The notes beneath the pieces were generated by a model that saw only the letters and a program-made list of their open reading frames with translations, was not told where the DNA came from and did no database searches. The position numbers and the translations under genes were made by a program. Below, in pieces: positions 2,593-20,592 of a stretch of 20,592 nucleotides of DNA. Origin of the DNA: a virus. Each line of letters starts with the position of its first letter. Positions within the stretch are counted from its first letter, which is position 1. The stretch lies in the IMG/VR virus record IMGVR_UViG_3300007960_010521, positions 1-20,592 of that record; one strand, given 5' to 3'.

Positions 2593-4136
2593 TATTCAAC
2601 CCTAAATTTTGATGCAGCATCAGTTACTATTGTGTCAAAACCAGCTTTTTTAACTAAAAAGTCAAAAACATAAGTTCTTCCTCTTGGTAGTGCATCTATA
2701 TAAAACTCAAAATACATACCCGAAGAGTCTGTAGATAACTTAGTTGATCCATGAACAGTATCAAAATCTATTAATATATCACCTGTCTGAAAGTCTCTTA
2801 CACGATAAAACATTTGATGATATATCTGACTTTTCTTTTCTATAGGCGTTTTAGTATATGAAATTGGGCGATCTCTGTCTTCAGAAAAAACTTTGATTTT
2901 TACTACATCACCTGGCTTATAGGCATCTTTTAGATTTGTAACTGTTACAAGTATATTTTGCTGGAAATTATTAAATGCAGTTCTTGCATTTTTATTAACA
3001 GTGATTGATGATGAAAGATATGTAATTGTTTCATCAGAAGAAGACCATATTTCATCAAAAGTAATTGATCCGGAAACTTCTATATGCTTTTTAAGACTGT
3101 CTCCATTTACACTTTCTGTAGAAAAGCTACTAATAGCAAAAGAAGATGAGTAAACACCTGGAAGTCTCACATTGCCTCTTAATGCTTGAGACACATCGAA
3201 AGTTTTCTTAAAACTACCAGAGACTATTTTAAGTATCATAACATTTTCACCCGATAGTTCAGTTGCAGACTCACCTGTTAAAATATTTGAAGGAACTCCA
3301 AAATGAAAATTATTAAGATATAAGGATCCTGTGGAGTCAAATATAAAATCTTCGTGATTATCTTGTATACTGTCATCGTATTTGACTATCAACTTGGGTC
3401 TAATCGCTGTGTTTGAAGAATTTCTAGAAGCAAATCTTTTAACAAAGTATGTCTTGTCGTTTTGCTCATAGCTTCCAGAAAACCCTATAAGAAACCCATG
3501 ATCAGGAATCTGCCCTGATACTGTTCCCGAGACTATTCTAGTCACATCTATTAATAAATTTTCTTCTCCTGACTCAAAATACTGTGTTGGGCTAAGTGAA
3601 TATTGTGTAGGACCGCCCGGGCTAGAAAGTGTTCCGCTTACAATTACATCTATGTTTGATTCTCCCAACGAACCTGATGCTCTTGCCCCCGATCTCGTCC
3701 ACAAAGTTTGAACACCTCTACGATAAGATGCAGTTATAAAATTACATGTTCCTATGTCTCTATAGACACTAACATCGTATCCTGATCCTTCATCAAATGA
3801 TTTTGAAAGAGGAAATAAGATTAATTCAAAATTTTCAGGAGTAGTTTGACCTCCGTAAACATCATGAAGCCCTACAAGACACTTAAAACTATCATCATTG
3901 ATATCAATCTTTCCTGCATTGTTCATGCTTGTAATTTCTGCAATATCAAATTTTAAAAGAATTCTAGAAATTTCTGTTTGTTTATCAGACTGACCTGATA
4001 GAGTATTTTCATCATAAATTTTAAAAAGATCTAAGGTTCCAGCTTGACCCATGTTAGCATCAGTCGCTCTATAAGCTGAATTGATAATTTTATCTGTAAT
4101 ATAAGTGTCTTTTGATGCTGAAAGAATTCTATACAT
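2592..4136 (-). CDS. DNRLRE-like beta-rich tail/baseplate protein
   Basis: 514 aa. Residues 1-254 have the layout of a DNRLRE/CBM96-like beta sandwich: an opening TYITDK with a following Gly-rich turn, RILLKFDI at 58-65, and the closing RPKLIVKYDD at 246-255. Such modules are found on secreted and surface proteins and often bind polysaccharide. Residues about 265-395 form a second Ser/Gly-rich beta region. Residues 400-514 look like an Ig-like domain (YKPGDVVKIKVF at 406-417, final FRVE) of a type I recall from the ends of large-phage structural proteins. No signal peptide or membrane segment is seen. It lies between gp6-like and LamG genes with one-base TAATG overlaps on both sides, so translational coupling is likely. 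A virion structural role is well supported by context; sugar binding is inferred. Confidence 0.75.
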   Translation of the reverse strand: MYRILSASKDTYITDKIINSAYRATDANMGQAGTLDLFKIYDENTLSGQSDKQTEISRILLKFDIAEITSMNNAGKIDINDDSFKCLVGLHDVYGGQTTPENFELILFPLSKSFDEGSGYDVSVYRDIGTCNFITASYRRGVQTLWTRSGARASGSLGESNIDVIVSGTLSSPGGPTQYSLSPTQYFESGEENLLIDVTRIVSGTVSGQIPDHGFLIGFSGSYEQNDKTYFVKRFASRNSSNTAIRPKLIVKYDDSIQDNHEDFIFDSTGSLYLNNFHFGVPSNILTGESATELSGENVMILKIVSGSFKKTFDVSQALRGNVRLPGVYSSSFAISSFSTESVNGDSLKKHIEVSGSITFDEIWSSSDETITYLSSSITVNKNARTAFNNFQQNILVTVTNLKDAYKPGDVVKIKVFSEDRDRPISYTKTPIEKKSQIYHQMFYRVRDFQTGDILIDFDTVHGSTKLSTDSSGMYFEFYIDALPRGRTYVFDFLVKKAGFDTIVTDAASKFRVE

Positions 4137-5980
4137 TATGAAACCCTCCCTACTATGTCATCGCCCGGGTATTTTATTTCAAATATTCCGCCTGTTGGTG
4201 GAAATAAATAGCCTCTATCTATATTTCTTGTAGGATCAAAAAAGTATCCGGAGTATACATTATTGCCTGTTGCACCTGTCTTGTTGTTAAATTTCAAGCT
4301 GGTAATTGCTTCTACGTCAGGTGTATTCAATATTAAATTTTCAATTTCTCCCATTTTAATAGGTTGATCAATTTGAAAATTTTCTATATTAAAGTATTGA
4401 GTTAGTTTGCTATTTATTTCTCCAATAACAATAGAAGATATTGCATCTAGACCTAGTGTGACTGTATATTCTAATCCTAGATTCACAATACTTCCATCAA
4501 GTACATCGATTGCGTCGGTTATTATTCTAAATTTGCTTAAGTATTTGGATAAGTTTTCTTTTAATGTGTCTGACGCGAGTATTAAGTCTCCAGATGAGTT
4601 TCTAGACAATACAAAAAGCTGTGCTGCTTGCGGATTGTTAGGATTGTCTCTAACAGATGCTCTAAAAACTCTGCCAAAGTTATTTGGCAAAGAATAGACT
4701 CTTGCTAAAAGATCTTCACGACTTACTATTCTATTTTGAGAATTTCTATTAAGGAGTGCAATCTGACGGAGTGCCTCGATTGAAGGTTCATCTTCGCCAC
4801 CAATTACAGTTTTTGTGTTATTGCAAGTGGCAGAAGCTCTTATAAGCGTCGCCTCTGTGGTTCCGGAACCTGGAGGAAATTCTGTCAAAAGCGTTGTAAC
4901 AGTATTGATTTCTCCAACACCTGAATTATGACCTAACCCGCCGCCCGACCGATAATAAATTGTAAGAGTAGTATTTCTTGGACTTATTCCTAAAGTCTGT
5001 GTACCCAAAAATGAATTTGGATCGATCGTAATTTTATTTAAAGACTTTTTGTCACCATAAAGTCTGATGGCATGTTCAGACGGATCAGGGATAATATCTT
5101 CATCAAAAACATCTTCATTTCCTGATCCGAAAAGAAGAGACAATTGACCGCTTGACGTAGCTCTAGAAGCAACAAATCTTCTAGGCGCATGTATTAATTT
5201 AATTCTTTCGTCTGCAAGATGAGAATCAGATCTATTATTGGGCATTCTTTTAAAAATCGTACTCTGCGTTAGCGATTCGACTTCATAATATTCTTCACCA
5301 TCAGTGTCTACTACTCTAACAATCTCTGTTGCATCTGCATCTGTAATTATTACTCTTCTAAAAGGTACAAAAGTATCTGGAATATTAACAGTTTGAGTTT
5401 TTAGTTTTGAACTTACTACCAAGACACTTCTTGTCAATAGAAAGTCAACAGGCACACCTGCAGATGTTTGATTAATTTCATAACTTGCAACTAAATCGCC
5501 TGCTGAATCAGTTTCAGCAAAGTCTACATCATCTGGCATATAAAATTTTATACCTCTTCTTGATGTAAAGATTGACTCTGCTTTTATCTTCGGTATTTTG
5601 TTGACGTCAGGAATATATTCTCCTTCTGAGAGAACTGAAGGGATTACAATAGACACGTTTAAAAATCCGATCGCAGGTGATTTACCCTGTATTTTGACAC
5701 CCGCTTCTCTTACAAGCCTTTCTATGTTTCTTGTTTCTACAGCTTTTTCTAAAGAATTTTCATTAAACTGGTGGTCTAGATAAAAAGATGTAACATCACC
5801 CACATAAGCAGCAACATCAATTAACATACCTGCCAGTGATGTATCTGTCGTGTCTAGCAAAACATCTCTGTAGTATGTTCCTACAAATCTTTTTAGATCG
5901 TTTCTTAGACTTTCAAAGTCTCTGCTAGTATAAGATATATCTTTTTGTTTTTGAATGTCTTTTTTAATATTTTTTGCCAT
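4136..5980 (-). CDS. Baseplate wedge protein, gp6-like (Baseplate_J)
   Basis: 614 aa, close to the size of T4 gp6 (about 660). The N-terminus carries the typical opening TSRDFESLRNDL (18-29), then GMLIDVAAYVGDVTSFYLDHQ (51-71), as in gp6 proteins. FGSGNEDVF (284-292) matches the conserved FG(D/S)G turn. Residues 394-437 (GGEDEPSIEALRQIALLNR, then IVSREDLLARVYS) are the classic Baseplate_J core. PIKMGEIENLILNTPDVEAI (540-559) matches the usual C-terminal fold. In T4, gp6 forms the dimeric clamp linking baseplate wedges around the hub. The gene starts one base after the gp25-like stop, and the upstream string reads as a G-rich ribosome site. It ends in a TAATG overlap with the DNRLRE gene. Confidence 0.93.
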   Translation of the reverse strand: MAKNIKKDIQKQKDISYTSRDFESLRNDLKRFVGTYYRDVLLDTTDTSLAGMLIDVAAYVGDVTSFYLDHQFNENSLEKAVETRNIERLVREAGVKIQGKSPAIGFLNVSIVIPSVLSEGEYIPDVNKIPKIKAESIFTSRRGIKFYMPDDVDFAETDSAGDLVASYEINQTSAGVPVDFLLTRSVLVVSSKLKTQTVNIPDTFVPFRRVIITDADATEIVRVVDTDGEEYYEVESLTQSTIFKRMPNNRSDSHLADERIKLIHAPRRFVASRATSSGQLSLLFGSGNEDVFDEDIIPDPSEHAIRLYGDKKSLNKITIDPNSFLGTQTLGISPRNTTLTIYYRSGGGLGHNSGVGEINTVTTLLTEFPPGSGTTEATLIRASATCNNTKTVIGGEDEPSIEALRQIALLNRNSQNRIVSREDLLARVYSLPNNFGRVFRASVRDNPNNPQAAQLFVLSRNSSGDLILASDTLKENLSKYLSKFRIITDAIDVLDGSIVNLGLEYTVTLGLDAISSIVIGEINSKLTQYFNIENFQIDQPIKMGEIENLILNTPDVEAITSLKFNNKTGATGNNVYSGYFFDPTRNIDRGYLFPPTGGIFEIKYPGDDIVGRVS

Positions 5981-5981
5981 T

Positions 5982-6476
5982 TCATCCCCCGCCTTGCAAG
6001 GTTACGTCAATTGACTGATTTCCAATTCTTGCACTAGGTATTTGATATACAATTCTAAGTCTAATTTTTGCAAGACCTAATCTATTAATTTCTTCTTTTT
6101 CATTTTTATCTAGATCAATTTCGCTTATTGATTCTATTTGAATACCGGGCATATATTTTTGAATTGCAGTCTCTATTCTTTCTGATATTTCTGATTCAAC
6201 TGCTGGATTATTTGTAAACTCAAAAACTAATGCACTCAAATCAGCTCCGAAATCATACAAACCTAATCTTTCTCCAAAATTTGTTAATATTAAATTTCTT
6301 AAATTATCTTTAATCTGGTCAGCAGGGTCTTGATGCATATCAAATATTTGGTGACCTTGTGAATTCTTAAGAGGCGTTTTAATACCAATATCTCTCTGCT
6401 TTTTTGTAAATTTTTCAGTAGAAACACTTCTATCACTTATTCTCGTACCAGAACTTTTAAAACTAAAGCTTGCCAT
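5982..6476 (-). CDS. Baseplate wedge protein, gp25-like (GPW_gp25)
   Basis: 164 aa. Residues 45-155 fit the gp25/GPW family: DQIKDNLRNLILTNFGERLG (53-72), then DFGADLSALVFEF (75-87), an acidic helix SEISERIETAIQKYMPG (95-111), and a final beta hairpin. The E69-R70 pair falls where gp25 proteins keep their conserved GER motif. In T4, gp25 sits at the inner baseplate and is thought to seed sheath assembly. The approximately 45-residue basic, Ser/Thr-rich N-terminal extension is longer than in compact family members. A GAGGG ribosome site precedes the ATG. The gene lies directly before the gp6-like gene, as expected for a wedge operon. Confidence 0.92.
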   Translation of the reverse strand: MASFSFKSSGTRISDRSVSTEKFTKKQRDIGIKTPLKNSQGHQIFDMHQDPADQIKDNLRNLILTNFGERLGLYDFGADLSALVFEFTNNPAVESEISERIETAIQKYMPGIQIESISEIDLDKNEKEEINRLGLAKIRLRIVYQIPSARIGNQSIDVTLQGGG

Positions 6477-6527: not shown

Positions 6528-7499
6528 CTATTCTAATCCTAGAAGTGATCCAGTACCAAAAGAAATTAGTCCTTTATCAACCATAAAACCGACAAAGGCT
6601 GTTATGAAAGCAATAATGACTAGTTTAATCATTGCAATTATACATGCAACAAATAAAATTGCACCTTTTAAAACTTCCAATATTAATGCAATTGCTTCTA
6701 AGACGATATTGATAACTATTTCTATTACAGCTAACAAAAAATTAACTATGCCTTTTAAAAGTTCTAAAATTAATTCTCCTATTTTTGATATGAGCGCAAT
6801 TAAAGCATCGATAATACCAAGCATTATTTGTATTGGTACCCAATTTAAAGCCGGAAATTCCAAGTTTAAACTTAAAAAAGGATCAAGCGTAGGCAAGTCT
6901 ATGTCTATTGCAAAATCAAAGTCAAATGAAGGAAAGTCTATTTGAGGAGGAAACTCTAAGCTAATGTCAGGAACTGATAAACCACAAATAGCTTTTAGTT
7001 TTTCTGGAAGGTCGTTTGTATTAATTCTATCATCGATTTCAGAAAGACCTTGTGCAAATTCTTCATTTTCACATTGAGATAATTTATCCCACGGAAGATC
7101 TGATATTGCTTCTATATTTTCCAAAAACCAAGGAATAGGATCATTTATCCCTATATCAAAAAGTAAATTTAAAAACTCTGGTATGATTGGCTCAATTGGC
7201 TTTGTTGGATCTGTAAAACCAATAGGATTATTTGGACCGGGCGGAAGAATAGTATCAATTGCCTCTACAGAAGCATAAAAACCACCTGTAAGAATAGGAA
7301 AGGGATCACCATTGTTAATTTTTTCTTGTACAGCTTCAGACTGAGCTGCTCCTACTTCTGGCATGGGTAGAGGAAGCGGTATAGGTACACCGAAAACATC
7401 TCCTCCTCCTGTTTCTAATACCTTAACAACTTCTTGTTGGTATCTAGTCTTCCAAGATTCTTCATCTCCAAAAGTTGCTAATGTTCCTGACAAAGGCAT
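6528..7499 (-). CDS. Unrecognised baseplate-cluster protein with very apolar C-terminal third
   Basis: 323 aa, family not recognised. The N-terminal 60 or so residues include a Pro-rich stretch (PIPLPLPMP, 39-47). Residues 80-130 are rich in Pro, Ile and Asn. Residues 175-222 alternate aromatic/Pro with Asp (PSFDFDFAIDIDLPTLDP at 190-207). Residues 223-315 are almost uninterrupted Ile/Leu/Val/Ala/Phe, broken at intervals by single Asp, Lys or Glu, giving several helices that could be transmembrane or a bundled amphipathic array. Only two or three Cys are present and no catalytic motif is visible. An AAAAGGA ribosome site precedes the ATG. The position between the hub/spike gene and the gp25-like gene argues for a virion part. 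A membrane-inserting tip or plug, or a hydrophobic core of the hub, are possibilities, not demonstrated. Confidence 0.7.
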   Translation of the reverse strand: MPLSGTLATFGDEESWKTRYQQEVVKVLETGGGDVFGVPIPLPLPMPEVGAAQSEAVQEKINNGDPFPILTGGFYASVEAIDTILPPGPNNPIGFTDPTKPIEPIIPEFLNLLFDIGINDPIPWFLENIEAISDLPWDKLSQCENEEFAQGLSEIDDRINTNDLPEKLKAICGLSVPDISLEFPPQIDFPSFDFDFAIDIDLPTLDPFLSLNLEFPALNWVPIQIMLGIIDALIALISKIGELILELLKGIVNFLLAVIEIVINIVLEAIALILEVLKGAILFVACIIAMIKLVIIAFITAFVGFMVDKGLISFGTGSLLGLE

Positions 7500-7510
7500 T
7501 ATTATTCCTT

Positions 7511-9112
7511 TTAAATAGAAGGAACAGCAATTAATACTTTGTTGCTAAATGTACCCGTGCTTGGTTGCTCAGGAACAGCAACAAGGCCACCTGCTGTTGT
7601 AACTATTGTTGGAGCCTCAACATTTCCTAATGTTCTTAAAGAGTCTGCAGCAGCAACTAAACCGCCTACAGCATCATCAGCTCCTAGTTTAAGAATTCCA
7701 TTTACTCCTGGAACTATTCTAACATCTCCTCCTGATTCTAAAACAATTTTGGCTCCGCCTTCTTCGTTTGCAAATATAATGACGTCGCCGTCAGGAGTGA
7801 ATTGTATCCCACTTGATCCGGCAACATTGTGTATTTTAATTGTTTCAGTTCCTACAATTCTTGTATTTGTGCTTATTGCTGCAAGCGTTCCAAAATCACC
7901 TACACCTGTCAGGTCTTGCGGTGAAGCAGATAAATCTGGTTCTTTTGAATAATCTGATGAAAACAGTATGTCATCAATGGAGCTGGCATTTGTCAAATAA
8001 AGTCGCGCAGTACAATTATAAATATCAGAATCATAGAATTCTTCTTCAAAGATTTCTTTTCCTAATTTGTCTCTTGTTTTTTCATTTTCATAGTATCTTG
8101 CATCAGGGGGATTTTGCGATCCTGCAGAAGCTGATAATCCGGAGCCTTCTACGCTAATGCTATCTCCGCTGATTTCATTTGATCTAGTTAAACTTTTTAA
8201 TTCAAATATTTCTTTGGCTTTTCTCAATACACACAAATCAATGGCAGGTGATGTAGGCTTTCTAAATTGATTTGCATCAGTTTGACTAGATACAGTCGTA
8301 AATTCTTCTTGCGATGCTGTTGTTCCTGGTTCTTCGAATTTTTCTTTTCCTAGATATATGTGTGAGTTATTAGATCCTTGAATTAAAAAGTCTCCACAAT
8401 CCTTTACCTGTCTAGGAACAGGTTCCCCTGTAAACTCTTCTCCGGAAGCTATAGAAGAATTTAAAATTCTTTGTACATTTATTGAATTACCTTTCGAAAA
8501 CCCGCCTAAAAAGTGCGTATAAGTATTTTCATCTGTTGATGAGCCTACATTTGAAATCGCTTCTTCTCTTTGTCCTAACGTAAAATTTGTATCTTCAACT
8601 TGTCTAAATGAAGGCTGTCTGCAAATCCAGTAATAAATATTTTCATTAAATTTTATAACCCAGACAGATTCTCCTGGCTTAACAGGCATCATCATGTGAG
8701 AAGAAAAGAAAGGAAAACAAAGGATTGTTTTTCCTGATGCACCTCCAGAAATTTGTTCATTTAAAAATACAGAAATTGAATTTGCAGGCGCATAGTCAAC
8801 TACACTTGAATTTAAATAAGGTGTTTGTATTGGATTGTCATTGTCATCTTTTTTTATTCTTCCAGAAAAAGCATCTCCCACTGTAATAGTTTTTCCATTA
8901 GCAGTTTTTGATCCGTCTCCTAAGGGTCTATAGAAATAGTCATAAGGATTAGATATCACTTCTTCTACAATACCTACCTTAAATGTAGATCTACTACCTT
9001 CTTCTAAAGAAGATCTTGCTACATTATCTTCTAAATCTTTTTCTAAGCTTAGATCAGCACCTGATCCGCCTTGTGCTTCGTTTCTAAGCGTTCTTAGGCT
9101 CCATCTTCTCAT
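7511..9112 (-). CDS. Baseplate hub/spike protein, gp5 OB-fold-like
   Basis: 533 aa. After a charged N-terminus, residues about 45-165 resemble the OB-fold of gp5-type hub proteins. They end in PFFSSHMMMPVKPGESVWVI (134-153), a pattern I recall as ...H..LP(I/V)KPGE.VW. GDFLIQGSNNSHIYLG (240-255) is another recurrent element of such spikes. Residues about 410-480 are short Gly-turn beta repeats (IKIHNVAG, GIQFTPDGDVIIF, AKIVLESGGDVRIVPG, ILKLG), as expected for a trimeric beta-helical needle. No lysozyme domain like that between the OB and needle parts of T4 gp5 is seen; the middle is Ser/Glu-rich. The start overlaps the upstream stop as ATGA. Its role would be the central membrane-puncturing spike of a contractile tail. 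Confidence 0.8.
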   Translation of the reverse strand: MRRWSLRTLRNEAQGGSGADLSLEKDLEDNVARSSLEEGSRSTFKVGIVEEVISNPYDYFYRPLGDGSKTANGKTITVGDAFSGRIKKDDNDNPIQTPYLNSSVVDYAPANSISVFLNEQISGGASGKTILCFPFFSSHMMMPVKPGESVWVIKFNENIYYWICRQPSFRQVEDTNFTLGQREEAISNVGSSTDENTYTHFLGGFSKGNSINVQRILNSSIASGEEFTGEPVPRQVKDCGDFLIQGSNNSHIYLGKEKFEEPGTTASQEEFTTVSSQTDANQFRKPTSPAIDLCVLRKAKEIFELKSLTRSNEISGDSISVEGSGLSASAGSQNPPDARYYENEKTRDKLGKEIFEEEFYDSDIYNCTARLYLTNASSIDDILFSSDYSKEPDLSASPQDLTGVGDFGTLAAISTNTRIVGTETIKIHNVAGSSGIQFTPDGDVIIFANEEGGAKIVLESGGDVRIVPGVNGILKLGADDAVGGLVAAADSLRTLGNVEAPTIVTTAGGLVAVPEQPSTGTFSNKVLIAVPSI

Positions 9113-9456: not shown

Positions 9457-10200
9457 TTATCCAAATAAAATAAAGTGATCATCGTTCTTAACTATCTCTT
9501 TATAATATTTTCTAATATTAGAAAGTGAAGAGCTTAATTGCTTAGGATTAAGACCGGATATCTCCCTTAAGTAAACAAAAACTGCACGCTTGTTTAAAAA
9601 CTCTAATTCTTCTATATTCCCAAAAAGAGTAATTACTGCATTGATACACAGCTTTTCATTTTCATTAAGCGGTTTACTTTTAATCTTTCTAAGCATTTCT
9701 CTTAGAATAACTTTGTCTTCTTCTTTAATGAATAGATCATCTTGAGAAGGAATTATTTTATAAGATTCTATCATTTCCTTTTCAACACTACTCAAGCTTT
9801 GAAGATCTTCTATAGAGACATTTCTTATTTTACTCTTTTGAGTTTTTTTAGCACCTGCTAAAAGGTGGTTTTTTGCGCATGCATTGAAATAAGAAAAAGC
9901 TTTGCTACCTTGAGAAGCATCAAATTTATACAGGGTCTCGTATAAAAAAGATACACAGTCTGACTTGAGTACACAAAAATGATCAGGGTCTCTACTAAAT
10001 CCGTAAATATATATTAGATTTTCAGATAATTTTTCAAAAGCATTCTTTATTTGATTCTGATATATTTCATGCTTTTCTTCTTCACAGACAGTATTTTGAT
10101 ATTCGACTATCGCATCATGAACGTCTACACCAAAATAAGGTTTAGACTTCTTGCGGCGTCGGTCCGCTTTCATCTTCTTTAATTTCAATTTTTCTCCCAT
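9457..10200 (-). CDS. Late-transcription sigma factor, gp55-like
   Basis: 247 aa. Residues about 48-135 look like sigma-70 region 2 in its phage gp55 form: DCVSFLYETLYKFDASQGSKAF (81-102) followed by SYFNACAKNHLLAGAKKTQKSK. T4 gp55 has [21 protein letters not shown] at the same place. A linker with acidic patches follows, then a helical part (178-236) that includes VYLREISGLNPKQLSSSLSNIR (209-230), a possible helix-turn-helix. The last residues, DDHFILFG, are acidic then aromatic/apolar, resembling the clamp-binding tail LDFLYE of T4 gp55. The protein would direct host RNA polymerase to late promoters. The ATG at 10200 lies inside the previous gene (59-nt overlap) with no clear ribosome site; an ATG at 10176 is an alternative start, giving a protein 8 residues shorter. 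At 247 aa it is longer than T4 gp55 (185). Confidence 0.75.
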   Translation of the reverse strand: MGEKLKLKKMKADRRRKKSKPYFGVDVHDAIVEYQNTVCEEEKHEIYQNQIKNAFEKLSENLIYIYGFSRDPDHFCVLKSDCVSFLYETLYKFDASQGSKAFSYFNACAKNHLLAGAKKTQKSKIRNVSIEDLQSLSSVEKEMIESYKIIPSQDDLFIKEEDKVILREMLRKIKSKPLNENEKLCINAVITLFGNIEELEFLNKRAVFVYLREISGLNPKQLSSSLSNIRKYYKEIVKNDDHFILFG

Positions 10201-10477
10201 AACTTTCAGTCAGTTTGTTTGCGACATTAATCAAAGCTTCTCTTGATATTCTCAATTCATTAACTACTCTTCTTACTTCCATAGAATCAAAAAATACAGG
10301 TATTTCTAGAATTTCAGAAATATTCTTAAATCTTTCGTCAAGAATGTCTAAACATTCTTCTATTGAATCTTCTAGATTTATTAAGATCATAGAAAACCTA
10401 AAAAGTTTATAGAGGCAAAATGCAAGAGAAGCTGAAAGTATAACTACGCAAATTGTAAGTATTTCTATTAATCCCAT
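10142..10477 (-). CDS. Small membrane-anchored helical protein, unrecognised
   Basis: 111 aa from the ATG at 10477. Residues 4-26 (LIEILTICVVILSASLAFCLYKL) form one transmembrane helix near the N-terminus; little sequence precedes it. The rest is a charged helical domain likely facing the cytoplasm, with ISEILEIPVFFDSMEVRRVV (about 53-72) at its core, a pattern I recall from uncharacterised proteins of large phages. The tail is acidic, GPTPQEV. An upstream TTG at 10486 is in frame, but the ribosome site AAGGAG (10489-10494) is only 2 nt from it and 11 nt from the ATG, so the ATG is chosen. The 3' end overlaps the sigma gene by 59 nt. No function is known. Confidence 0.7.
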   Translation of the reverse strand: MGLIEILTICVVILSASLAFCLYKLFRFSMILINLEDSIEECLDILDERFKNISEILEIPVFFDSMEVRRVVNELRISREALINVANKLTESYGRKIEIKEDESGPTPQEV

Positions 10478-10479
10478 TT

Positions 10480-11658
10480 TTAACAATGCTCCTTGAAAAA
10501 CTTATCATATTTTTTACAAATCTTTTCTTTAGAAAATAATCGATTGACGTCTTTTTTGAGACTTTTTGCATTTTCTTCGTGTGTACGATAATCTTTCCTA
10601 AGGCTTTCTATGGCATCAATAAAGGATTTTTTTCGAGGTTCAGCCCATTGCACGCCTTTTACAAATATTCTTCCATCTACTCTTTTTTCAACAACAGGCT
10701 TTAGATCATATTCAACTTTTAAAAATTTGTCACTTAAAAAGTCTAAATGCCCAGACCAATTTGTTGCAATGACCGGAATGCCCGCAGCTGCTGCTTCTAC
10801 TAGCGGGAGACCATAACCTTCACCTCTTGTAGCAGATACATACCCTTTAATACTTCCTACTTTATAAAGAGAAGCTACTTCTTTTTTTGTCATATTTCCA
10901 TGAATTAGGTGAATTTTAGGAAACTCAGACTTTCTAAAAGCTTTTACTATTTGTGATATTGCAGACTTTGTCATTGCTCTGTCTTTGACTGAACCTCTTC
11001 CTAGACATGTCTTAACAACAATACCCGAGTCTTTTACACCATCGAGCGCTTCAATAGCCCATTTAATTGTATTAACTAAGTTTTTTCTGTCTGAATCTAC
11101 GTCTGCTGATGTTAGGGTACCTATTGTAAGCAAATTAAATTTTGTATCAAACTTAAACCTTTCGTCTTTATTTCTTTTTAGTTCGCTGTCTTTTAAAAGC
11201 AAATCGGTGTTAAACCATTCAGCAATTACGTGTATTTTTTTATCAAAAGTGGACCCAAAAGTATTTCTAATAACGTCTTTAGTAAATTCAGAAGGTACTA
11301 TGATCTGATCCATACTCATCATTTTATTAAACCAAGCAGGATTACATCTATCTGTTTCTACTAGCGCAGTTACGCCTACATTAAACTTGCCTAAGTTAGA
11401 GTCCCATTCATCAGGTAGTTGTACTTGAAAAGTTAAATCAAACTTTTTACCTTCTATACTGGAGGCTCTTTTCATAATTTCGCCAAAAATGCCTTCTTCA
11501 GTATTTGGATTTACTATCCAGGGTGTTGCTCCCCACTGCAAAGCTTGCACATGTACATTTAAATCTTTTTTAGTAAGAAGCCACTCAAATATTTGTCTTG
11601 AATGTACTCCATAACCGCTGTTTGTAAGTAGAGGTGCTCTTATAAGTACGTTTTTCAT
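10480..11658 (-). CDS. GT4-family glycosyltransferase
   Basis: 392 aa with a GT-B (two Rossmann domains) pattern. The N-terminal donor-free domain opens with VLIRAPLLTNSGYGVHSRQ (4-22). The C-terminal nucleotide-sugar domain begins around LLTIGTLTSADVDSDRKN. It contains SATRGEGYGLPLVEAAAAGIP, with the EX7E pair at E280 and E288 and the downstream GIPVIATNWSGHLDFL, diagnostic of retaining GT4 enzymes. It would move a sugar from an NDP-sugar to an acceptor in the cytoplasm. No membrane segment is seen. A GAGGA ribosome site at 11663-11667 lies 4 nt before the ATG and overlaps the previous stop. It follows a second GT4 gene and precedes the small membrane protein and the sigma factor, so it is probably expressed with them. 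Donor and acceptor are unknown. Confidence 0.9.
   Translation of the reverse strand: MKNVLIRAPLLTNSGYGVHSRQIFEWLLTKKDLNVHVQALQWGATPWIVNPNTEEGIFGEIMKRASSIEGKKFDLTFQVQLPDEWDSNLGKFNVGVTALVETDRCNPAWFNKMMSMDQIIVPSEFTKDVIRNTFGSTFDKKIHVIAEWFNTDLLLKDSELKRNKDERFKFDTKFNLLTIGTLTSADVDSDRKNLVNTIKWAIEALDGVKDSGIVVKTCLGRGSVKDRAMTKSAISQIVKAFRKSEFPKIHLIHGNMTKKEVASLYKVGSIKGYVSATRGEGYGLPLVEAAAAGIPVIATNWSGHLDFLSDKFLKVEYDLKPVVEKRVDGRIFVKGVQWAEPRKKSFIDAIESLRKDYRTHEENAKSLKKDVNRLFSKEKICKKYDKFFKEHC
10489..10494 (-). promoter_or_regulatory. Ribosome binding site AAGGAG deciding the start of the 111-aa gene
   Basis: AAGGAG on the minus strand sits 11 nt before the ATG at 10477 and only 2 nt before an in-frame TTG at 10486. 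The spacing excludes the TTG. Confidence 0.6.
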
Positions 11659-11665
11659 TTATTCC

Positions 11666-12919
11666 TCAAAAAGTAAATTTTTCCCAAGATTTGTAAGACT
11701 TGAATTCTTTAATTACGTCAAGCATGCTTTGGTGCCACAGGTCAACTGTTTTTTGCAAAGAAAATTCTTCACGAGCATAATCGTGTACCTTCTTGCTCAA
11801 TAGCAATCTTTCTTGCGGATTTAAGTCAAAAATCTTTCTTAGACCAGCTGCTATAGATTCATTACTTGCGTAGTCTTCATAAATATAAGGTACCCCTTGA
11901 CTTCCCACTAGAGTTCTTAGAGCAATAGGGACAGCCACACCGTTATGACTCTGATCTCTGTGGTCAACTACTTGACGTGTAAGTCCACCTGTCGTAGCTG
12001 CAACAATAGGAGTCCCGGACATCATTGATTCAAGAGTTGATAGGCCAAATCCTTCTGCATATGAAAGCGTAAAACAAACATCTGATATGTTGTATATCAC
12101 ATTCATTTTTTCAAAATCTATTCTGTCTCTTGAAAAGAAAACATTAGATTCTAACCCTAGCATTCTTGATGTTTCAAAAAGATTGGGTCCTTCATTGTCA
12201 GTAGGCTCAGTATGCATAATTAAAGTAGCTTTTCTGTGCCCGTGATCTTTTTCTAAATTGTCTAAAAAGATCTTCCATGACATTAATGCATCATTTGGTC
12301 TTTTTCTTTTTGCATTTCTATTTACCCAAAGTGCAACAAAATGGTCTTGTCTATCTTCTCCTAACAAAGTCTTTTTATTTAAAGCAACCAAATCTGTTGG
12401 GAGAGGTTTAAAAAGTTCATTAGGAAGTGCGTGAGGAATAAAAGAAGTTTTATGCCCGTGAACGCTTTCTTCTTTTAACATTGTATAAGTTAAATGAGAG
12501 TGACAGTTTATCTTATCAGTTGCATGATAATACATATCATTAAATTTTGGATACGGATAATTGTCCCATACATGCCACCAAACAATGGGGCACATTTGAT
12601 GTACTTCATCCTCAATTTCAAAAAGCCAAGTAAAAAATCTTGGGTCAGTGAAAATAAAAATAAGATCTGGTTTTTCTGTAGCTAAAGTAACTCTAATAAG
12701 ATCAGGATTTCCAAATCCGTCAATAGGCTTAATAATAAAATCTTCATTGACAACAACAGTATCATAGCTGCTATGCTTAATTGCTGCTCCAAACTGTCTA
12801 AAAGACCAACAACCTTTTTTTAACAAACCGTTTATCAAGTGTCTTGTTTGTGTCCCTACGCCGCTTGTTGAAAGTGCATGATCAGAAAGGACTAAAACTT
12901 TAAACTTTTTCTTATTCAT
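11666..12919 (-). CDS. GT4-family glycosyltransferase
   Basis: 417 aa from the ATG at 12919. The N-terminal Rossmann half opens with KFKVLVLSDHALSTSGVGTQ and keeps the Gly-rich loop that binds the acceptor side. The C-terminal half includes VALWVNRNAKRKRP (start of the donor domain) and LSYAEGFGLSTLESMMSGTP with the EX7E pair at E289 and E297, followed by PIVAATTGGL. This identifies a GT4-like retaining transferase; the protein has no membrane helix. An in-frame TTG at 12922 directly precedes the ATG, but AGAGG (12925-12929) is 5 nt from the ATG and 2 nt from the TTG, so the ATG is preferred. It is first after a 47-nt gap with a promoter-like box and is followed 7 nt later by another GT4. Substrate unknown. 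Confidence 0.9.
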   Translation of the reverse strand: MNKKKFKVLVLSDHALSTSGVGTQTRHLINGLLKKGCWSFRQFGAAIKHSSYDTVVVNEDFIIKPIDGFGNPDLIRVTLATEKPDLIFIFTDPRFFTWLFEIEDEVHQMCPIVWWHVWDNYPYPKFNDMYYHATDKINCHSHLTYTMLKEESVHGHKTSFIPHALPNELFKPLPTDLVALNKKTLLGEDRQDHFVALWVNRNAKRKRPNDALMSWKIFLDNLEKDHGHRKATLIMHTEPTDNEGPNLFETSRMLGLESNVFFSRDRIDFEKMNVIYNISDVCFTLSYAEGFGLSTLESMMSGTPIVAATTGGLTRQVVDHRDQSHNGVAVPIALRTLVGSQGVPYIYEDYASNESIAAGLRKIFDLNPQERLLLSKKVHDYAREEFSLQKTVDLWHQSMLDVIKEFKSYKSWEKFTF

Positions 12920-12924
12920 CAAAA

Positions 12925-12929
12925 CCTCT
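12925..12929 (-). promoter_or_regulatory. Ribosome binding site AGAGG deciding ATG over TTG
   Basis: AGAGG lies 5 nt before the ATG at 12919 and 2 nt before the TTG at 12922, so it fits only the ATG. Confidence 0.55.
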
Positions 12930-12938
12930 TTGATCTCA

Positions 12939-12947
12939 ATTATATCA
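12939..12947 (-). promoter_or_regulatory. Candidate extended -10 promoter (TGATATAAT)
   Basis: The 47-nt gap between the nuclease and the GT4 gene contains TGATATAAT, a perfect extended -10 (TGnTATAAT). It lies just after a seven-T tract and 19 nt before the ATG at 12919. A TTAACT at 12965-12960 is a weak -35 with a 15-nt spacer. The implied leader is very short (about 13 nt) but would still hold the AGAGG ribosome site. No T4-type TATAAATA late box was found near it. Confidence 0.35.
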
Positions 12948-12966
12948 AAAAAAGTTTTAAGTTAAA

Positions 12967-13803
12967 TCAAGTACAATGTTCAGTTTGATGATACTGACAA
13001 TATTTGCAAGAATCTCTATTCTTTAGAAATAACTTTCTTCTTACACCTGAGATCATACTATTAAGTACTTTTACTCCTTTTACTAAGGTCTTCGGGCCTG
13101 CTGACACTTTTACAAGTTGACAAACTTTTCCTTTTTTGGCACCTCGTCCTAGAGTAATAAAAGCACATCTAACTTGATTGTGCGGAATACCGTGTTTTTG
13201 AGACCAATAGTATTTGTAAAGAATTAACTGGAGCTGCATTAAAAAGTCTTGTTTTTTATCGCTTCTCCATCCTCCACTTCCTGCCGTCTTCCAGTCAATA
13301 ATCCAATACTCATAACCTTTTCCTCTCTTTTTGGGTACTTTAATGACACTGTCGATAAACCCTTTCAGCGAAAGATTTTTTCCTTCAACCGGTTCATAAA
13401 GCTCTTCCTCGGCAGCATGAAGTGTCCACCCAGGAAACTCTTGATCTAGAAAAGGAACAACTTCTGCCCACATATTTTCAGCCCATTTGCACCATTCGTC
13501 TAGAGGCGCGTAGGACTTTTTATACCAGTCAGGCTGTTTAGCTACCCACTCTGGATTATCAAAGTCATACTTTTTCCAAGCTGCTCTTATGTCAGACAAA
13601 AGCTTTTCTTTAGGTACTTCTTTTCTTTCTAGAAGAGTTTCACACCCTTCGTGAACTGCAGTTCCAAAGTCCAAATAAGGACTAGGTTCAAACATATCTA
13701 TCTTGTCAATATAAAGCAACTTATGTCTGTAAGGACACTCTTTCCAATGCTTAACTTCAGAAAAAGATACGTGTGGCTTTCCAGTTGGAAAATCTTGATT
13801 CAT
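12967..13803 (-). CDS. PD-(D/E)XK nuclease, Cas4/RecB-type with Fe-S cysteines
   Basis: 278 aa. The order of motifs is that of Cas4/AddB-like exonucleases: HVSFSEVKHWKECPYRHKL (11-29, with C23), FGTAVHEG (H51), GFIDSVI (D151), IIDWKTA (D170, K172), and QLQLILYKYYW with the conserved Gln helix. The C-terminal SCKYCQYHQTEHC supplies C266, C269 and C277. With C23, these four Cys are placed like the 4Fe-4S staple of Cas4, AddB and related DNA end-processing enzymes. It would act on DNA ends in recombination, repair or host DNA degradation. A strong ribosome site (TAGGAG) precedes the ATG. It stands alone between the sugar cassette and the GT4 pair, flanked by 47-nt gaps. No CRISPR array or other Cas gene is visible. 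Direction of cleavage cannot be read. Confidence 0.87.
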   Translation of the reverse strand: MNQDFPTGKPHVSFSEVKHWKECPYRHKLLYIDKIDMFEPSPYLDFGTAVHEGCETLLERKEVPKEKLLSDIRAAWKKYDFDNPEWVAKQPDWYKKSYAPLDEWCKWAENMWAEVVPFLDQEFPGWTLHAAEEELYEPVEGKNLSLKGFIDSVIKVPKKRGKGYEYWIIDWKTAGSGGWRSDKKQDFLMQLQLILYKYYWSQKHGIPHNQVRCAFITLGRGAKKGKVCQLVKVSAGPKTLVKGVKVLNSMISGVRRKLFLKNRDSCKYCQYHQTEHCT

Positions 13804-13805
13804 TT

Positions 13806-13827
13806 TAAACTCCTACAAAAGAGTTTA
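13806..13827 (-). promoter_or_regulatory. Inverted repeat overlapping the nuclease ribosome site
   Basis: On the minus strand TAAACTC, an 8-nt loop (TTTTGTAG), and GAGTTTA form a perfect 7-bp inverted repeat. The GGAG of the ribosome site spans the loop end and the 3' arm, with the ATG two bases after the arm. If it folds in mRNA it would partly hide the ribosome site. The stem is A/U-rich with only two G-C pairs, so stability is doubtful. Confidence 0.35.
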
Positions 13828-13830
13828 ATA
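13825..13830 (-). promoter_or_regulatory. Weak candidate -10 box (TATTAA) before the nuclease
   Basis: TATTAA follows a six-T tract and TG, 21 nt before the nuclease ATG at 13803. The layout mirrors the TATAAT box before the GT4 gene. It overlaps the inverted repeat, and no good -35 is seen. Confidence 0.2.
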
Positions 13831-13850
13831 CAAAAAATAAAACTTTACAA

Positions 13851-14720
13851 TTAATCTTCAGAAATTGCTCTTCCTTTCATCGATTCCCAGTCTCTATTTT
13901 TTCTTACTGCGTCATTTTTTTCTCTTGTTGCTTCTAGTATTGTAGGAGTGACATCTTTTTGAGTCATTAAGTAGATCATTGCATCTAAATCTTTTGGAAA
14001 ACAGTGCCCTCCATATCCAAAGTCACCGTCAGGCCCGGGGACTGCAAGATGACTTCTTCCTATTCTTTGATCAAATAGAGCATACTCAGTAACCTTATCA
14101 TAATCAATTCCTAGTTTACTGCAAATTTGATACATTTCATTTGCAAATGATACCTTGACTGACAGGAAATTATTAATAAAGTATTTTACCATCTCAGCAG
14201 TCTGATATCCTGTTTTAACAATAGGAATATGCGGAAATGCTTTTCTAAACATAGTTTTAACTTGTGTTGTATAAGGCCTCGGACCACCAAGTATTATACG
14301 AGTTTGATTTTTAAAATCTTCTATTGAATTAGCTTCTGTAAGAAACTCTGGACTAAAAACAATATTAAGATTTTCAAATTCTTGATTAAGCTTTTCGCAT
14401 GTTCCCGGTGGGACAGTTGACTTTATTACAATAATTGGATTTTTATTGTGAACTGACGCTATCGTATTTAGAGCTTCAAGAGAGTTTCTTACAAGGCTTA
14501 AATCGCATTCACCTGACTTTTTCATTGGTGTTGGCAAGCACTGAAATATTACATCACAATTTTGTACAATACTCGGTGGTGTTCCTAGCATCTCTTTAGG
14601 GCATAAATTTTTTTTTAAATCATATACAAGAATATTATAAAAATTCTTAAATCCTTCTCTAATCGCCGTTCCTACAAAACCTTGACCAATTATTCCTATA
14701 GTTGTTTTAGATACCGACAT
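13851..14720 (-). CDS. UDP-glucose/GDP-mannose dehydrogenase-like, short form
   Basis: 289 aa against about 390-430 for usual family members. The N-terminal NAD-binding fold has GQGFVG (12-17), CDVIFQCLPTP (55-65) and VIKSTVPPGT (98-107). FSPEFLTEA (122-130) and EMVKYFINNF (176-185) give the catalytic Glu, Lys and Asn. YGGHCFPKDL (236-245) holds the catalytic C240 and the Lys-Asp that follow in active enzymes. The protein stops about 45 residues later, so the third, C-terminal substrate-binding domain is absent while all active-site residues are kept. These enzymes oxidise an NDP-hexose twice to a uronic acid with NAD. The gene starts one nt after the WbqC-like stop. It may be an active short form or need a partner; the product sugar is unknown. 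Confidence 0.85.
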   Translation of the reverse strand: MSVSKTTIGIIGQGFVGTAIREGFKNFYNILVYDLKKNLCPKEMLGTPPSIVQNCDVIFQCLPTPMKKSGECDLSLVRNSLEALNTIASVHNKNPIIVIKSTVPPGTCEKLNQEFENLNIVFSPEFLTEANSIEDFKNQTRIILGGPRPYTTQVKTMFRKAFPHIPIVKTGYQTAEMVKYFINNFLSVKVSFANEMYQICSKLGIDYDKVTEYALFDQRIGRSHLAVPGPDGDFGYGGHCFPKDLDAMIYLMTQKDVTPTILEATREKNDAVRKNRDWESMKGRAISED

Positions 14721-14721
14721 T

Positions 14722-15327
14722 CTACTTCAGATCTCCGTTGTTTATGATATTGTATAGCATAGAATAGTAATTTTTAACTTGAGGATTAAAAAACTCTATA
14801 TTGATATTATTTTCTTTAAACATATTAATATCTAGATAATCTTTACCCGATGGACCTGAAATGTATGAGCTTGCATTCGTTTTTTTGCATATATCAAGAA
14901 GTAAATCTGTTTTTGATCCTTCTACATTTAATTCTGATGCAAATATCATAGGTGTTTCTATTTTTAACTTCTCTCTACACCACATAATTGATGATACATT
15001 TATATCTATTAACTTTTTAAAATTATACACGTTACTTAAATCTATTTTAAGATTATATTGTAATTTGTTTATTACTTTTTTCTTCCATCCATTTATTAAA
15101 TCGTCTACAACAACAACGTCTTTTATTTCCAAAGATGTACTTTTCTTAGGGACAGCTACACCAAACCATTCTTCTTTGCCCTTGCTATTGACTAGTTTAT
15201 TTCTGTTCTGAAAATAGTTTTTTCTAAACTTTACATTATCTAATATCACAAATAAGTCTGCTTCGTTCATTTTTTGGAAAAATCCTTCATATGGAAAGTG
15301 TTCGGGTTGATGAATCGTTATCTTCAT
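14722..15327 (-). CDS. WbqC-family protein
   Basis: 201 aa. The N-terminus MKITIHQPEHFPYEGFF (1-17) and LDNVKFRKNYFQNRNKL (29-45) match the WbqC family signature (HQP...P..GFF.K, L.DDVQ..K....NRN). EEWFGVAVPKK (52-62) and a central helical region complete a typical full-length member. WbqC-like proteins occur in O-antigen and capsule clusters. The family is little studied, though some are thought to make amidated or N-acylated sugar intermediates. The start overlaps the preceding methyltransferase stop by 4 nt (ATGA), so the two are probably translationally coupled. The neighbours (dehydrogenase, deacetylase, methyltransferase) fit a role in altering an amino- or uronic sugar, but the exact reaction is not known. 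Confidence 0.85.
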   Translation of the reverse strand: MKITIHQPEHFPYEGFFQKMNEADLFVILDNVKFRKNYFQNRNKLVNSKGKEEWFGVAVPKKSTSLEIKDVVVVDDLINGWKKKVINKLQYNLKIDLSNVYNFKKLIDINVSSIMWCREKLKIETPMIFASELNVEGSKTDLLLDICKKTNASSYISGPSGKDYLDINMFKENNINIEFFNPQVKNYYSMLYNIINNGDLK

Positions 15328-16082
15328 TTTTTATCTTTACTGCTTAAAATTTTATCAGAAGATTCTAATTGATTCATGCATGATTTGTCTAGATCAAACT
15401 TCTTTTTAAATACTAAAAGATTGTTGTAAGCGTGTATAAAAAGAATTTGATTTTTAAATTTTTTTGGATCGATGCCGGTATTCTTTTTTATATTTTTAGA
15501 TATTGGATGATCATAATTAGCTCTTTGATTTGGGTCTTTTTTAATTCTTTTATCTACGAGATTGTGAGAAAATATATCCAAATCTAATGTTCTAATTGCT
15601 CCTATTATAAATTTATCCCACGTCAATCTATGCTGTGGATATCCTAAGAAGTTGTCGTGAAATGTCATGCTAGTATCTTCTATAAAATATAAACCACCTA
15701 ATTTTAAATTTTGCCACAAGATTAAATATGAAGTTATCATGTGATTAAAAACATGACTTCCATCATCGATTATAATGTCAAACTTAGTATCTTTGATTTT
15801 TTCAAAGGTCTTAGGGTCGCTTTGATCTCCGATTATAATATCAATGTTTAAATTTTCGTCTTTTTCCTTTAAGCATTCAGGGTTTAAATCCACACCTATA
15901 ATATTTGCATTTTTAAAATATTTTGACCAAAGTCTAAGTGATTCTCCATTTTTAACACCAATCTCTAGTATATTAATATTTTTATCTCTAAGATCTTTAA
16001 AATAAAAATCATATATTCCAATATAATGTTCAAACTTATCTGTATTGATTTTTTGGTCTTCTTTTTCTTTTTTAGTAAACAT
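15324..16082 (-). CDS. Class I SAM methyltransferase, MycE/cephalosporin-hydroxylase-like
   Basis: 252 aa. HYIGIYDFYFKDL (19-31) then NILEIGVKNGESLRLWSKYF (37-56) is the opening typical of MycE-like sugar O-methyltransferases, where LEIGV..G.SL is the SAM loop. GVDLNP (63-68) is the acidic ribose-binding end of beta-2. DIIIDDGSH (102-110) supplies the Asp-Asp and His seen in metal-dependent members. FIEDTS (133-138) is another conserved edge. The C-terminal 50 residues are Lys-rich and probably irregular. It would methylate a sugar hydroxyl on a nucleotide sugar or glycan in the cytoplasm. The stop overlaps the WbqC-like start (ATGA), and the PIG-L gene lies 3 nt upstream. The substrate is inferred from the cluster only. 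Confidence 0.8.
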   Translation of the reverse strand: MFTKKEKEDQKINTDKFEHYIGIYDFYFKDLRDKNINILEIGVKNGESLRLWSKYFKNANIIGVDLNPECLKEKDENLNIDIIIGDQSDPKTFEKIKDTKFDIIIDDGSHVFNHMITSYLILWQNLKLGGLYFIEDTSMTFHDNFLGYPQHRLTWDKFIIGAIRTLDLDIFSHNLVDKRIKKDPNQRANYDHPISKNIKKNTGIDPKKFKNQILFIHAYNNLLVFKKKFDLDKSCMNQLESSDKILSSKDKK

Positions 16083-16085
16083 TTT

Positions 16086-16736
16086 TTACCTCCATTTTAA
16101 AATTTTAAAGCATTCTGAATGATTACTGCTGACAATTGCGAAATTTTCAATTTCGTAGACTCTGCCTATGTTGTAGTGAGATTCACTCTGCAAATAATAC
16201 CCTAAATTAGTATAAGATTGTTCATTATTGATATTATATACATCACACATTTCTTTTTTAATAGCGTAGTCTTCTTTGCTTAAATCTATCCATAAATTTG
16301 GTTTAAAGTTTGTTGTGCTAGGCGAGTATACTGTGATGTACTTGTCTGTATATTTAAAAAGGCCTTTTGATATCATCGCAACTGCTACATGGTCTGTGTG
16401 ACAGTCTTCTAAATCATGCGTCAATATGTCTATTTTAGTATATTTAGAAAAATTAATTTGACTATAAAATTTATCTTTAAGGTCATCAAATTTTGTCATC
16501 AATGTCCGCTGCTCGTATTCAAGGTTAAGATAATTTATTTTAAGACCTTCACATCTAGACTTAATCTTCTCTATGTTCTGATTCCAAAGTTTTTCTTTAG
16601 GCATCCATTTTGTAGCTATATAAAAATTAATCTCATCGTATTCTTTGTATTTTTTAAACACATAAGAGAGACAAGAAAGTTCTACATCATCAATATGAGC
16701 TAAAAATATTATTAAGTTTCTTTTTAATTCAACCAC
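16086..16736 (-). CDS. PIG-L/LmbE-like N-acetyl-sugar deacetylase
   Basis: 216 aa if begun at the GTG at 16736. FLAHIDDVELSC (11-22) is the zinc-binding AHPDDxE motif, with Ile in place of Pro. DCHTDHVAVA (111-120) is the second metal motif, usually HPDHxAV. These are the defining residues of the PIG-L family, which removes acetyl from N-acetylglucosamine-type groups. No membrane helix is seen. The start is uncertain: a TTG at 16766 extends the frame by 10 residues, but AAGGA (16744-16748) is 7 nt before the GTG and fits it well. The GTG lies inside the end of the upstream glycosyltransferase (13-nt overlap). Deacetylation of an amino sugar is the likely step, with the glycan unknown. Confidence 0.8.
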   Translation of the reverse strand: MVELKRNLIIFLAHIDDVELSCLSYVFKKYKEYDEINFYIATKWMPKEKLWNQNIEKIKSRCEGLKINYLNLEYEQRTLMTKFDDLKDKFYSQINFSKYTKIDILTHDLEDCHTDHVAVAMISKGLFKYTDKYITVYSPSTTNFKPNLWIDLSKEDYAIKKEMCDVYNINNEQSYTNLGYYLQSESHYNIGRVYEIENFAIVSSNHSECFKILKWR

Positions 16737-17674
16737 GACATTATCCTTTTGTAAGCTGACTGGCAAGCAAAATCAACAGTCAAATATTTTTTACCATCGA
16801 TGTAACATCTTTTTGATAAAATATCATTATCTCTGTTAACAAATTCGTCACATGATAAATTAAATTCTTCTCTATTGTTATTTTGATATGTGAGACAATA
16901 AGGAGCACAATATTCATTTACTAGAACTAGATCATTAATTATGCAAGGAGTTCCCGCTCTAATTGACTCAAAGATAACTCGTGGTCCTGGATCGAAGGGC
17001 TGGGCAGGTCTTGGGTCTGTTGTTAACATCGTAAGTCTTGAATTAAGAAATTCATATGCCAATTCTTCTCGAGTTAAAAAACGAAATGAACTTTTAAATC
17101 CTTTTAATTTAAGATTTTCGTATAGGTAATTTGCATATTGCTGATTGTATATTTTACCAGCAAATAAAAAACTATATCCGTTGAAAACTGATTCATCTAT
17201 TAAATCAACAATCTCTTTTTGATTTTTATCACTTCCAATTGACGCAGGAACAATTATTTGTTTTTTTCTGTCTCTCCAATTAAGAAAGTGATTATTAAAT
17301 ATTTTTTGCATCTCTTCGATAGGTGCTTTAATTAATTCGTTTTCTTTAAAGAAAAAATGACAATTTTTTTTATTGTGCTCAAAACCCATTGGTGTAACAT
17401 TTATAATGATAGTTTTGTTTGACGCAAAATTTTTTCCATATTTTTGAAATGAATCATTTTTACAAATTATTGCATCAAAATCAACTTTTTCTAAAAATTT
17501 TTTATCAATAATAGTTACATTTTTATTTATTCCGTTGTGAATAGCGCAAAAATTTCTTGATCCTTTTTCAAAAAGAGAAAAAACGCAATGTCCTTTTGAT
17601 GAAAAGAAATCTGGTAATATTTTTGATTCTATTTGATTGCTGTCAATTGGAAAATGTAAAAACAATATGTTCAT
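16724..17674 (-). CDS. Putative GT-B glycosyltransferase
   Basis: 316 aa. It opens with MNILFLHFPIDSN, a typical first strand of a GT-B fold. The second half has FLFAGKIYN (169-177), the start of the donor domain, and FDPGPRVIFESIRAGTPCII (227-246), which corresponds to the acidic donor-binding element (E.....EA.A.G.PVI) of GT4-like enzymes. Only E235 of the usual EX7E pair is present. NGI-type loops and a C-terminal helix ending in SWLN complete it. There is no membrane segment. It sits 4 nt after the sulfotransferase stop and overlaps the PIG-L start. The protein is shorter than most GT4s (about 370), so the acceptor domain is likely trimmed. Donor and acceptor cannot be inferred. Confidence 0.75.
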   Translation of the reverse strand: MNILFLHFPIDSNQIESKILPDFFSSKGHCVFSLFEKGSRNFCAIHNGINKNVTIIDKKFLEKVDFDAIICKNDSFQKYGKNFASNKTIIINVTPMGFEHNKKNCHFFFKENELIKAPIEEMQKIFNNHFLNWRDRKKQIIVPASIGSDKNQKEIVDLIDESVFNGYSFLFAGKIYNQQYANYLYENLKLKGFKSSFRFLTREELAYEFLNSRLTMLTTDPRPAQPFDPGPRVIFESIRAGTPCIINDLVLVNEYCAPYCLTYQNNNREEFNLSCDEFVNRDNDILSKRCYIDGKKYLTVDFACQSAYKRIMSWLN

Positions 17675-17678
17675 AAAT

Positions 17679-18443: not shown

Positions 18444-18447
18444 TGTT

Positions 18448-20204: not shown

Positions 20205-20592
20205 TTACTTCAAACCTAACTCTTATTAAAACTTGATGACTTGGTTGACCACTTGCAGTCAATCCTATATCCCATATTTTAAATCCGTTTGAAGAATTTA
20301 TAAGCGTAGATATGTCTTTAAAACAACCAAACCTTACATCGAAATCATCAAATACCCACACCGGAGTTTTATTTTTTGCTTGGGTGCTAATTAGATTAAC
20401 AACATCTGTTATAACCGTATTTTCATCGTGAAGACCGTCAATATAAAACATTTCAATATCTTGTATGCTACTATTTTCACCCAATTCTTTGCTAGTTGCT
20501 TGATAATAGGTGCATTCTTTTTCGTATTCTAAGATGTGACTATTACTTCTAACGTCTCTTGGGTCACAACTATAAACTTTTCCGCTTGCTTC
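20194..20592 (-). CDS. SAM methyltransferase, Methyltransf_24-like, 5' end outside window
   Basis: The frame is open from the right edge to the TAA at 20194-20196, giving 132 residues. A TTG at 20484 is internal, not a start. The visible part begins EASGKVYSCDPRD, which fits the second strand with its acidic ribose-binding residue. IEMFYIDGLHDENTVITDV (about 45-63) matches the IDLLFIDGDHSYE..K.D element of Methyltransf_24-type enzymes. PVWVFDDFDV is the following strand, and the C-terminal part VLIRVRFEVNEN is a closing beta strand. The first SAM-binding loop is missing because it lies beyond the edge. It overlaps the next gene by 11 nt. The target is unknown; the sugar cassette suggests a glycan or nucleotide sugar. 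Confidence 0.7.
   Translation of the reverse strand, partial: EASGKVYSCDPRDVRSNSHILEYEKECTYYQATSKELGENSSIQDIEMFYIDGLHDENTVITDVVNLISTQAKNKTPVWVFDDFDVRFGCFKDISTLINSSNGFKIWDIGLTASGQPSHQVLIRVRFEVNEN

Follow-up and report, generated by a model that had tools for sequence, protein, structure and literature searches.

What does an apolar protein of no recognised family do in the middle of a baseplate gene block, and which of the neighbouring products is its partner? The question is raised by a gene for a 323-aa protein in a 20,592-base contig of a marine bacterial virus (IMG/VR record IMGVR_UViG_3300007960_010521, positions 1 to 20,592), the whole of which is referred to below as the window.

The gene and its surroundings

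The open reading frame runs on the minus strand from an ATG at position 7499 down to 6528, stop codon included (Table 1). A first-pass annotation of the sequence, which named no strand, had described a strong ribosome site, which we take to be real because an AGGA stands six nucleotides upstream of the start codon. It had also placed the gene between hub/spike and gp25-like genes; this holds, with gp25 recognised by PF04965 on one side and a spike-like ORF on the other. The gene is not an artefact, since diverged homologues occupy the same slot of about 30 contigs and homologue pairs have dN/dS values of 0.06–0.21; at the sequence level it behaves as a genuine gene under purifying selection.

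Table 1. Coordinates of the 323-aa protein gene, its parts and its neighbours in the window
Feature	Positions	Strand	Basis
Spike-paired apolar protein gene, 323 aa	6528..7499	-	ORF; ~30 same-slot homologues; dN/dS 0.06–0.21
N-terminal folded domain, residues 1–175	6975..7499	-	AlphaFold2 pLDDT mostly 75–93; conservation
Pro/Asp/aromatic stalk, residues 176–219	6843..6974	-	Alternating apolar/Asp pattern; P190 invariant
Long amphipathic apolar helix, residues 220–276	6672..6842	-	AlphaFold2 helices; helical periodicity
Transmembrane-like helix, residues 281–307	6579..6659	-	AlphaFold2; insertion energy; hydropathy
C-terminal loop and short helix, residues 308–323	6531..6578	-	AlphaFold2 short helix 311–319; G310 invariant
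Shine-Dalgarno AGGA	7506..7509	-	Sequence; 6 nt upstream of the 323-aa protein's ATG
Spike/hub protein, gp5/VgrG-like, 533 aa	7511..9112	-	Conserved motif; AlphaFold2 model
Spike C-terminal tail, residues 480–533, covaries with slot	7514..7675	-	Leave-one-out profile; independent pairs
gp25-like baseplate wedge / sheath initiator	5982..6476	-	PF04965, E 9e-9
gp6-like baseplate wedge, phylogenetic marker	4136..5980	-	phrog_219, E 7e-14

The spike ORF returned no match of its own in Pfam, PHROG and further sequence searches. We call it gp5/VgrG-like by its position, its conserved motif (P-F-F-P-x-H-L-x-L-P-x-K-P-G-E) and its AlphaFold2 model (mean pLDDT 69.5), which predicts a beta domain with strands in residues 44–165 and a stack of short strands, one every 9–11 residues, in 425–467. 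The last 54 residues are disordered in this model of the spike alone.

Other parts of the window deserve brief mention. A partial ORF at 1–2592, lying after gp6 and a 514-aa ORF, contains a Laminin_G_3 domain (PF13385, E 2.9e-8), a match that suggests a carbohydrate-binding baseplate or fibre protein. The gene at 9457–10200 has a weak match to a late sigma factor (phrog_234, E 4e-4) and is conserved in many relatives, where it lies two genes ahead of the spike. A small ORF at 10142–10486 has one N-terminal transmembrane-like segment; relatives have counterparts in this position whether or not they carry the slot protein. Judging from the sequences, the stretch directly beside the baseplate genes, 10480–20592, is a long series of ORFs resembling glycosyltransferases, nucleotide-sugar dehydrogenases and methyltransferases.

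An exchanged slot coupled to the spike tail

Relatives were gathered with gp6 as bait. Their slot between the spike-like gene and gp25 can hold diverged versions of the 323-aa protein with the same architecture, as it does in 27 of 99 resolved related marine viral contigs; this count leaves out five of the 32 positive contigs, which had been fetched with the 323-aa protein itself. The full set of 104 contigs comprises 32 positive ones, 28 with an empty slot and 44 with something else in it. All positive members are uncultivated contigs; a tblastn search of 50,697 phage records with the 323-aa protein gave no match, and no isolate carrying the gene was found in the phage collection. On a gp6 tree of the 104 contigs (a quick tree, LG+G4) presence and absence require 14 changes, and well supported branches force 11 of these. 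At least 11–14 gains or losses are what is expected of an accessory, and the distribution marks the protein as a swapped accessory, not a fixed part of the baseplate.

Proteins found in the slot of other relatives fall into clusters of their own, for which no link to the 323-aa family could be detected. Homology among the slot families was rejected, profile comparisons having given probabilities below 2%. In Microcystis phage Mel-JY01 (L013, 5918–6949) a putative chitinase (COG3179) directly follows the spike gene, at the start of the slot, and is possibly a separate tail lysozyme in the same position. The slot protein of Flavobacterium phage immuto (QQO91835.1; L014, 6015–7130) is annotated as DNA repair ATPase RecN; it has the look of a coiled-coil structural protein, and the annotation is probably wrong. 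Another family, Pro-rich and partly apolar (L143 903–2063, L157 2879–4429, L159 2945–4441, L153 4007–4453, L154 329–829), has a common C-terminal motif, AWAAAHVPPVDLRIGG in the long members, and adjoins spikes ending in Lys or Arg. Further apolar, Pro-rich slot proteins occur in L057 (1858–2301), L106, L107 (155–607), L108 (2018–2596) and L121 (117–719); in L057 and L121 they are followed by a small ORF whose cysteines are paired as in a zinc ribbon. In L161 an inserted ORF at 2751–3386, similar at its start to a GIY-YIG homing endonuclease, separates gp25 from gp6, and in L025 the slot gene (1488–2485) is split by a stop or frameshift, through decay or sequencing error.

What accompanies the 323-aa family is a particular ending of the spike. 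Spikes beside it terminate in a sequence of the type IKLGG-DA-KAIL ... TAGG ... F-x-x-KV-L-x-K; the other spikes have a helical-looking stretch with KS-x-x-IFGE, KILGS, SKVGKTK or similar at the end. Using profiles from which each spike and its close relatives were left out, the first tail type (score of at least 10) was recovered in 24 of 25 spikes next to the 323-aa protein, the sole exception being L011, and in none of 72 others, the highest of which scored 8.8. The pairing is kept in all ten phylogenetically independent pairs (sign test, p 0.002). One pair, L200 with a family protein and L047 without, has gp6 proteins 93% identical; their spikes resemble each other over the N-terminal part, and the divergence begins at the last putative beta-helix repeats. 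The two genes nearly overlap: in intact copies the spike stop lies −4 to +23 nt from the family start codon, against a gap of 21–137 nt on the gp25 side.

Coupling of the 323-aa protein to the spike gene and to the spike's C-terminal tail is well supported by this covariation, which points to the tail as its real partner. The first-pass annotation had the slot right; it missed both the exchange and this partner. Covariation can arise in another way: adjacent sequence could swap as one recombination block, the 3′ end of the spike and the next gene moving as a unit whose products have no contact, which counts against a docking interpretation and is compatible with any function. In favour of such hitch-hiking, the two stretches do adjoin and diverge at one point. 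However, a pairing kept in ten of ten independent comparisons argues against it, as does the fact that other slot families also go with their own tail endings: two other slot clusters (11 contigs) and the L057/L106/L108 type adjoin spike tails ending in Lys or Arg, and small helical slot families adjoin tails ending in Glu or Gln, these being descriptive observations. We consider hitch-hiking unlikely, while ranking it as one of the two main rivals to docking and membrane entry.

Fold of the protein and candidate identities

An AlphaFold2 monomer model was built on an alignment of 27 family members (mean pLDDT 77, pTM 0.75; moderate confidence). Its N-terminal domain consists of helices with a beta hairpin at 33–40 and contains a near-invariant Asp-Pro-Thr motif (D97-P-T99). 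The stalk that follows is predicted with low confidence (pLDDT < 50 for residues 181–216), and its P190 is identical in 27 of 27 members. The Pro-rich N-terminal stretch and the alternation of Asp and aromatic residues ahead of the tail, both described from the sequence beforehand, are present, the latter at about residues 181–217.

The apolar tail reported for residues 223–315 also stands up to scrutiny: Ile, Leu, Val, Ala, Phe and Met make up 72% of it, with single charges spaced between them, and its mean Kyte-Doolittle value of 2.03 over 93 residues lies above all of 2,000 shuffles of the protein (mean 1.08, maximum 1.73). The model resolves this tail into a long helix with one polar stripe and a second, transmembrane-like helix. 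The first is predicted with two short breaks (helices 220–238, 240–249 and 251–276), and in 23 of 27 members its helical periodicity is significant (p<0.05). Residues 224–292 include 13 polar ones, all of which fall inside one 120-degree arc (Rayleigh p about 1e-4), and a single helical phase runs over the last 80 residues in 25 of 27 members. The second helix has a mean hydropathy of 2.8, with an approximate insertion energy of −3.6 for residues 281–303 by a home-made approximation of the Hessa scale; beyond it, G310 is identical in all 27 members.

Such helices could also serve a soluble protein. A soluble oligomer could bury the apolar face, which counts against membrane entry, and the protein could dock on the spike and never enter a membrane, its apolar helices instead forming the interior of a soluble trimeric bundle, a cap or stiffener for the spike that would replace the helical tail carried by other spikes on their own chain. 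The spikes themselves offer some backing, as those without the 323-aa protein end in a predicted helical tail absent from this spike type, and the tails of empty-slot phages are more apolar than those beside other slot proteins, a comparison not corrected for kinship. However, helix 281–307 has hardly any polar residue, and a simple trimer would not need an apolar face as wide as that of helix 220–276. We regard this cap as fairly unlikely, yet it is, with hitch-hiking, a main rival. The hydrophobic hub core named in the first-pass annotation is also possible.

Database searches agree with the initial view that the protein is unrecognised and outside the standard T4 baseplate set. There was no meaningful Pfam or PHROG match, to T4 baseplate families among others, and a profile search returned no known soluble baseplate family. 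The best hit of the PDB profile search, a designed coiled coil (E 0.02), was not significant. No PAAR domain was among the Pfam matches or the other families listed for the protein family, and no chaperone or immunity family among the neighbouring proteins scanned against Pfam and PHROG. Scanning the whole family gave weak matches (best 1.8e-4) to two PHROGs annotated 'baseplate hub and tail lysozyme', a kind of match that the reversed control described below discounts.

Tape measure PHROGs were matched by 15 of 27 family members, with E-values down to 1e-8. Reversed sequences of five members, a control that keeps composition and helical spacing, matched the same tape measure families with similar E-values (down to 7e-7); the likeness is therefore one of composition and helical periodicity, not of ancestry, and homology was rejected. 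A match inside a siphophage tape measure protein (L197) was set aside, its bias being 67 bits and its score 45. Length and place do not suit a tape measure either, as family members have 312–438 aa and, in a 72-kb relative (G001), lie ~57 kb from the sheath- and tube-like ORFs. Within the structural module of G001, no plus-strand ORF other than the homologue has more than one transmembrane-like segment. In a relative without the slot protein (G009), compensation by tape measure transmembrane segments was not seen: no multi-pass-looking large ORF follows the tube gene.

These matches bear on a further placement, in which the protein would lie in the lumen of the tail tube or of the hub, beneath the tape measure protein, and be ejected ahead of the DNA like the tape measure's transmembrane part. 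Besides the matches in many members, it can appeal to the large ORFs of G001, none of which has transmembrane segments typical of siphophage tape measure proteins. We find a luminal position distinctly improbable, as the reversed sequences match equally well and covariation links the protein to the spike's distal end, not to a lumen protein. Transmembrane-like helices and an accessory distribution would also fit a non-virion protein acting in the membrane of the infected cell, in lysis or superinfection exclusion. This we hold to be very improbable: the gene lies inside a baseplate operon and is coupled to the spike gene and spike tail, and the N-terminal domain and stalk are unlike a holin.

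Proposed role and known systems

We hypothesize that the 323-aa protein is a virion accessory docked on the spike tip, whose helices enter the host membrane during infection and open a way for DNA; we give this full account an even chance, and more generally the protein probably helps the virus through the bacterial membrane. It would be made together with the spike and held by the matched tail at the spike's distal (C-terminal) end, where its N-terminal domain would dock and its Pro/Asp stalk would prolong the needle. The apolar helices may stay packed until the spike enters the cell envelope and then be released into the host membrane. Several copies could make a helix barrel, with an apolar outside facing lipid and the polar stripe lining the lumen, through which DNA could pass. 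The initial suggestion of a membrane-inserting tip or pore is in part supported, being consistent with the polar stripe of the first helix, with the transmembrane-like character of the second and with the link to the distal end of the spike. Against the proposed role counts the fact that many relatives manage without the protein.

The tape measure protein is usually credited with making a membrane channel for DNA. To our knowledge, how contractile phages cross the inner membrane once the spike has pierced the outer layers is poorly known, and the 323-aa protein is a concrete, testable candidate for this step. Beyond this locus, we tentatively speculate that contractile-tailed phages possess exchangeable two-part penetration cassettes, in which the spike's C-terminal tail is a docking code for the next-encoded protein, one such protein being an apolar helix-barrel former specialised in making the DNA channel through the membrane; as a generalisation, this is possible, if rather less than probable.

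Tape measure proteins with transmembrane segments offer one parallel, having long apolar amphipathic helices and a proposed role in a membrane channel; unlike them, the 323-aa protein has no homology to that group, is far shorter and is encoded after the spike. T4 gp5.4 and PAAR tip proteins are, like our candidate, thought to occupy the distal end of a gp5-like spike; however, it lacks a PAAR match and differs in composition and length. The L-loops of phi29 gp9 form a bundle in the tail knob and, after ejection, an alpha-helix barrel with a hydrophobic outer surface (PMC6542822). What the two would have in common is a set of apolar helices at the tail's distal end that are packed until infection and could form a barrel with an apolar exterior, a placement that for the 323-aa protein is our proposal. 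However, no common sequence was detected; phi29 has a short tail and infects a Gram-positive host, and its L-loops belong to the knob itself, where our candidate is a separate protein paired with the spike.

The type VI secretion system (T6SS) provides a close analogy for the pairing itself. C-terminal domains of VgrG select and stabilise cognate cargo, as in VgrG4b–PldA and VgrG5–PldB (PMC6684961). Here, too, covariation suggests a spike C-terminal domain matched to a specific protein in an exchangeable module, although this is a phage, the partner is no toxin that we recognise, and neither an immunity gene nor an Eag chaperone gene was recognised beside it. The spike tail pairing resembles the choice of cargo by T6SS spikes. 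It would extend the same principle to phages, and natural docking tags for contractile delivery machines might be found in this way.
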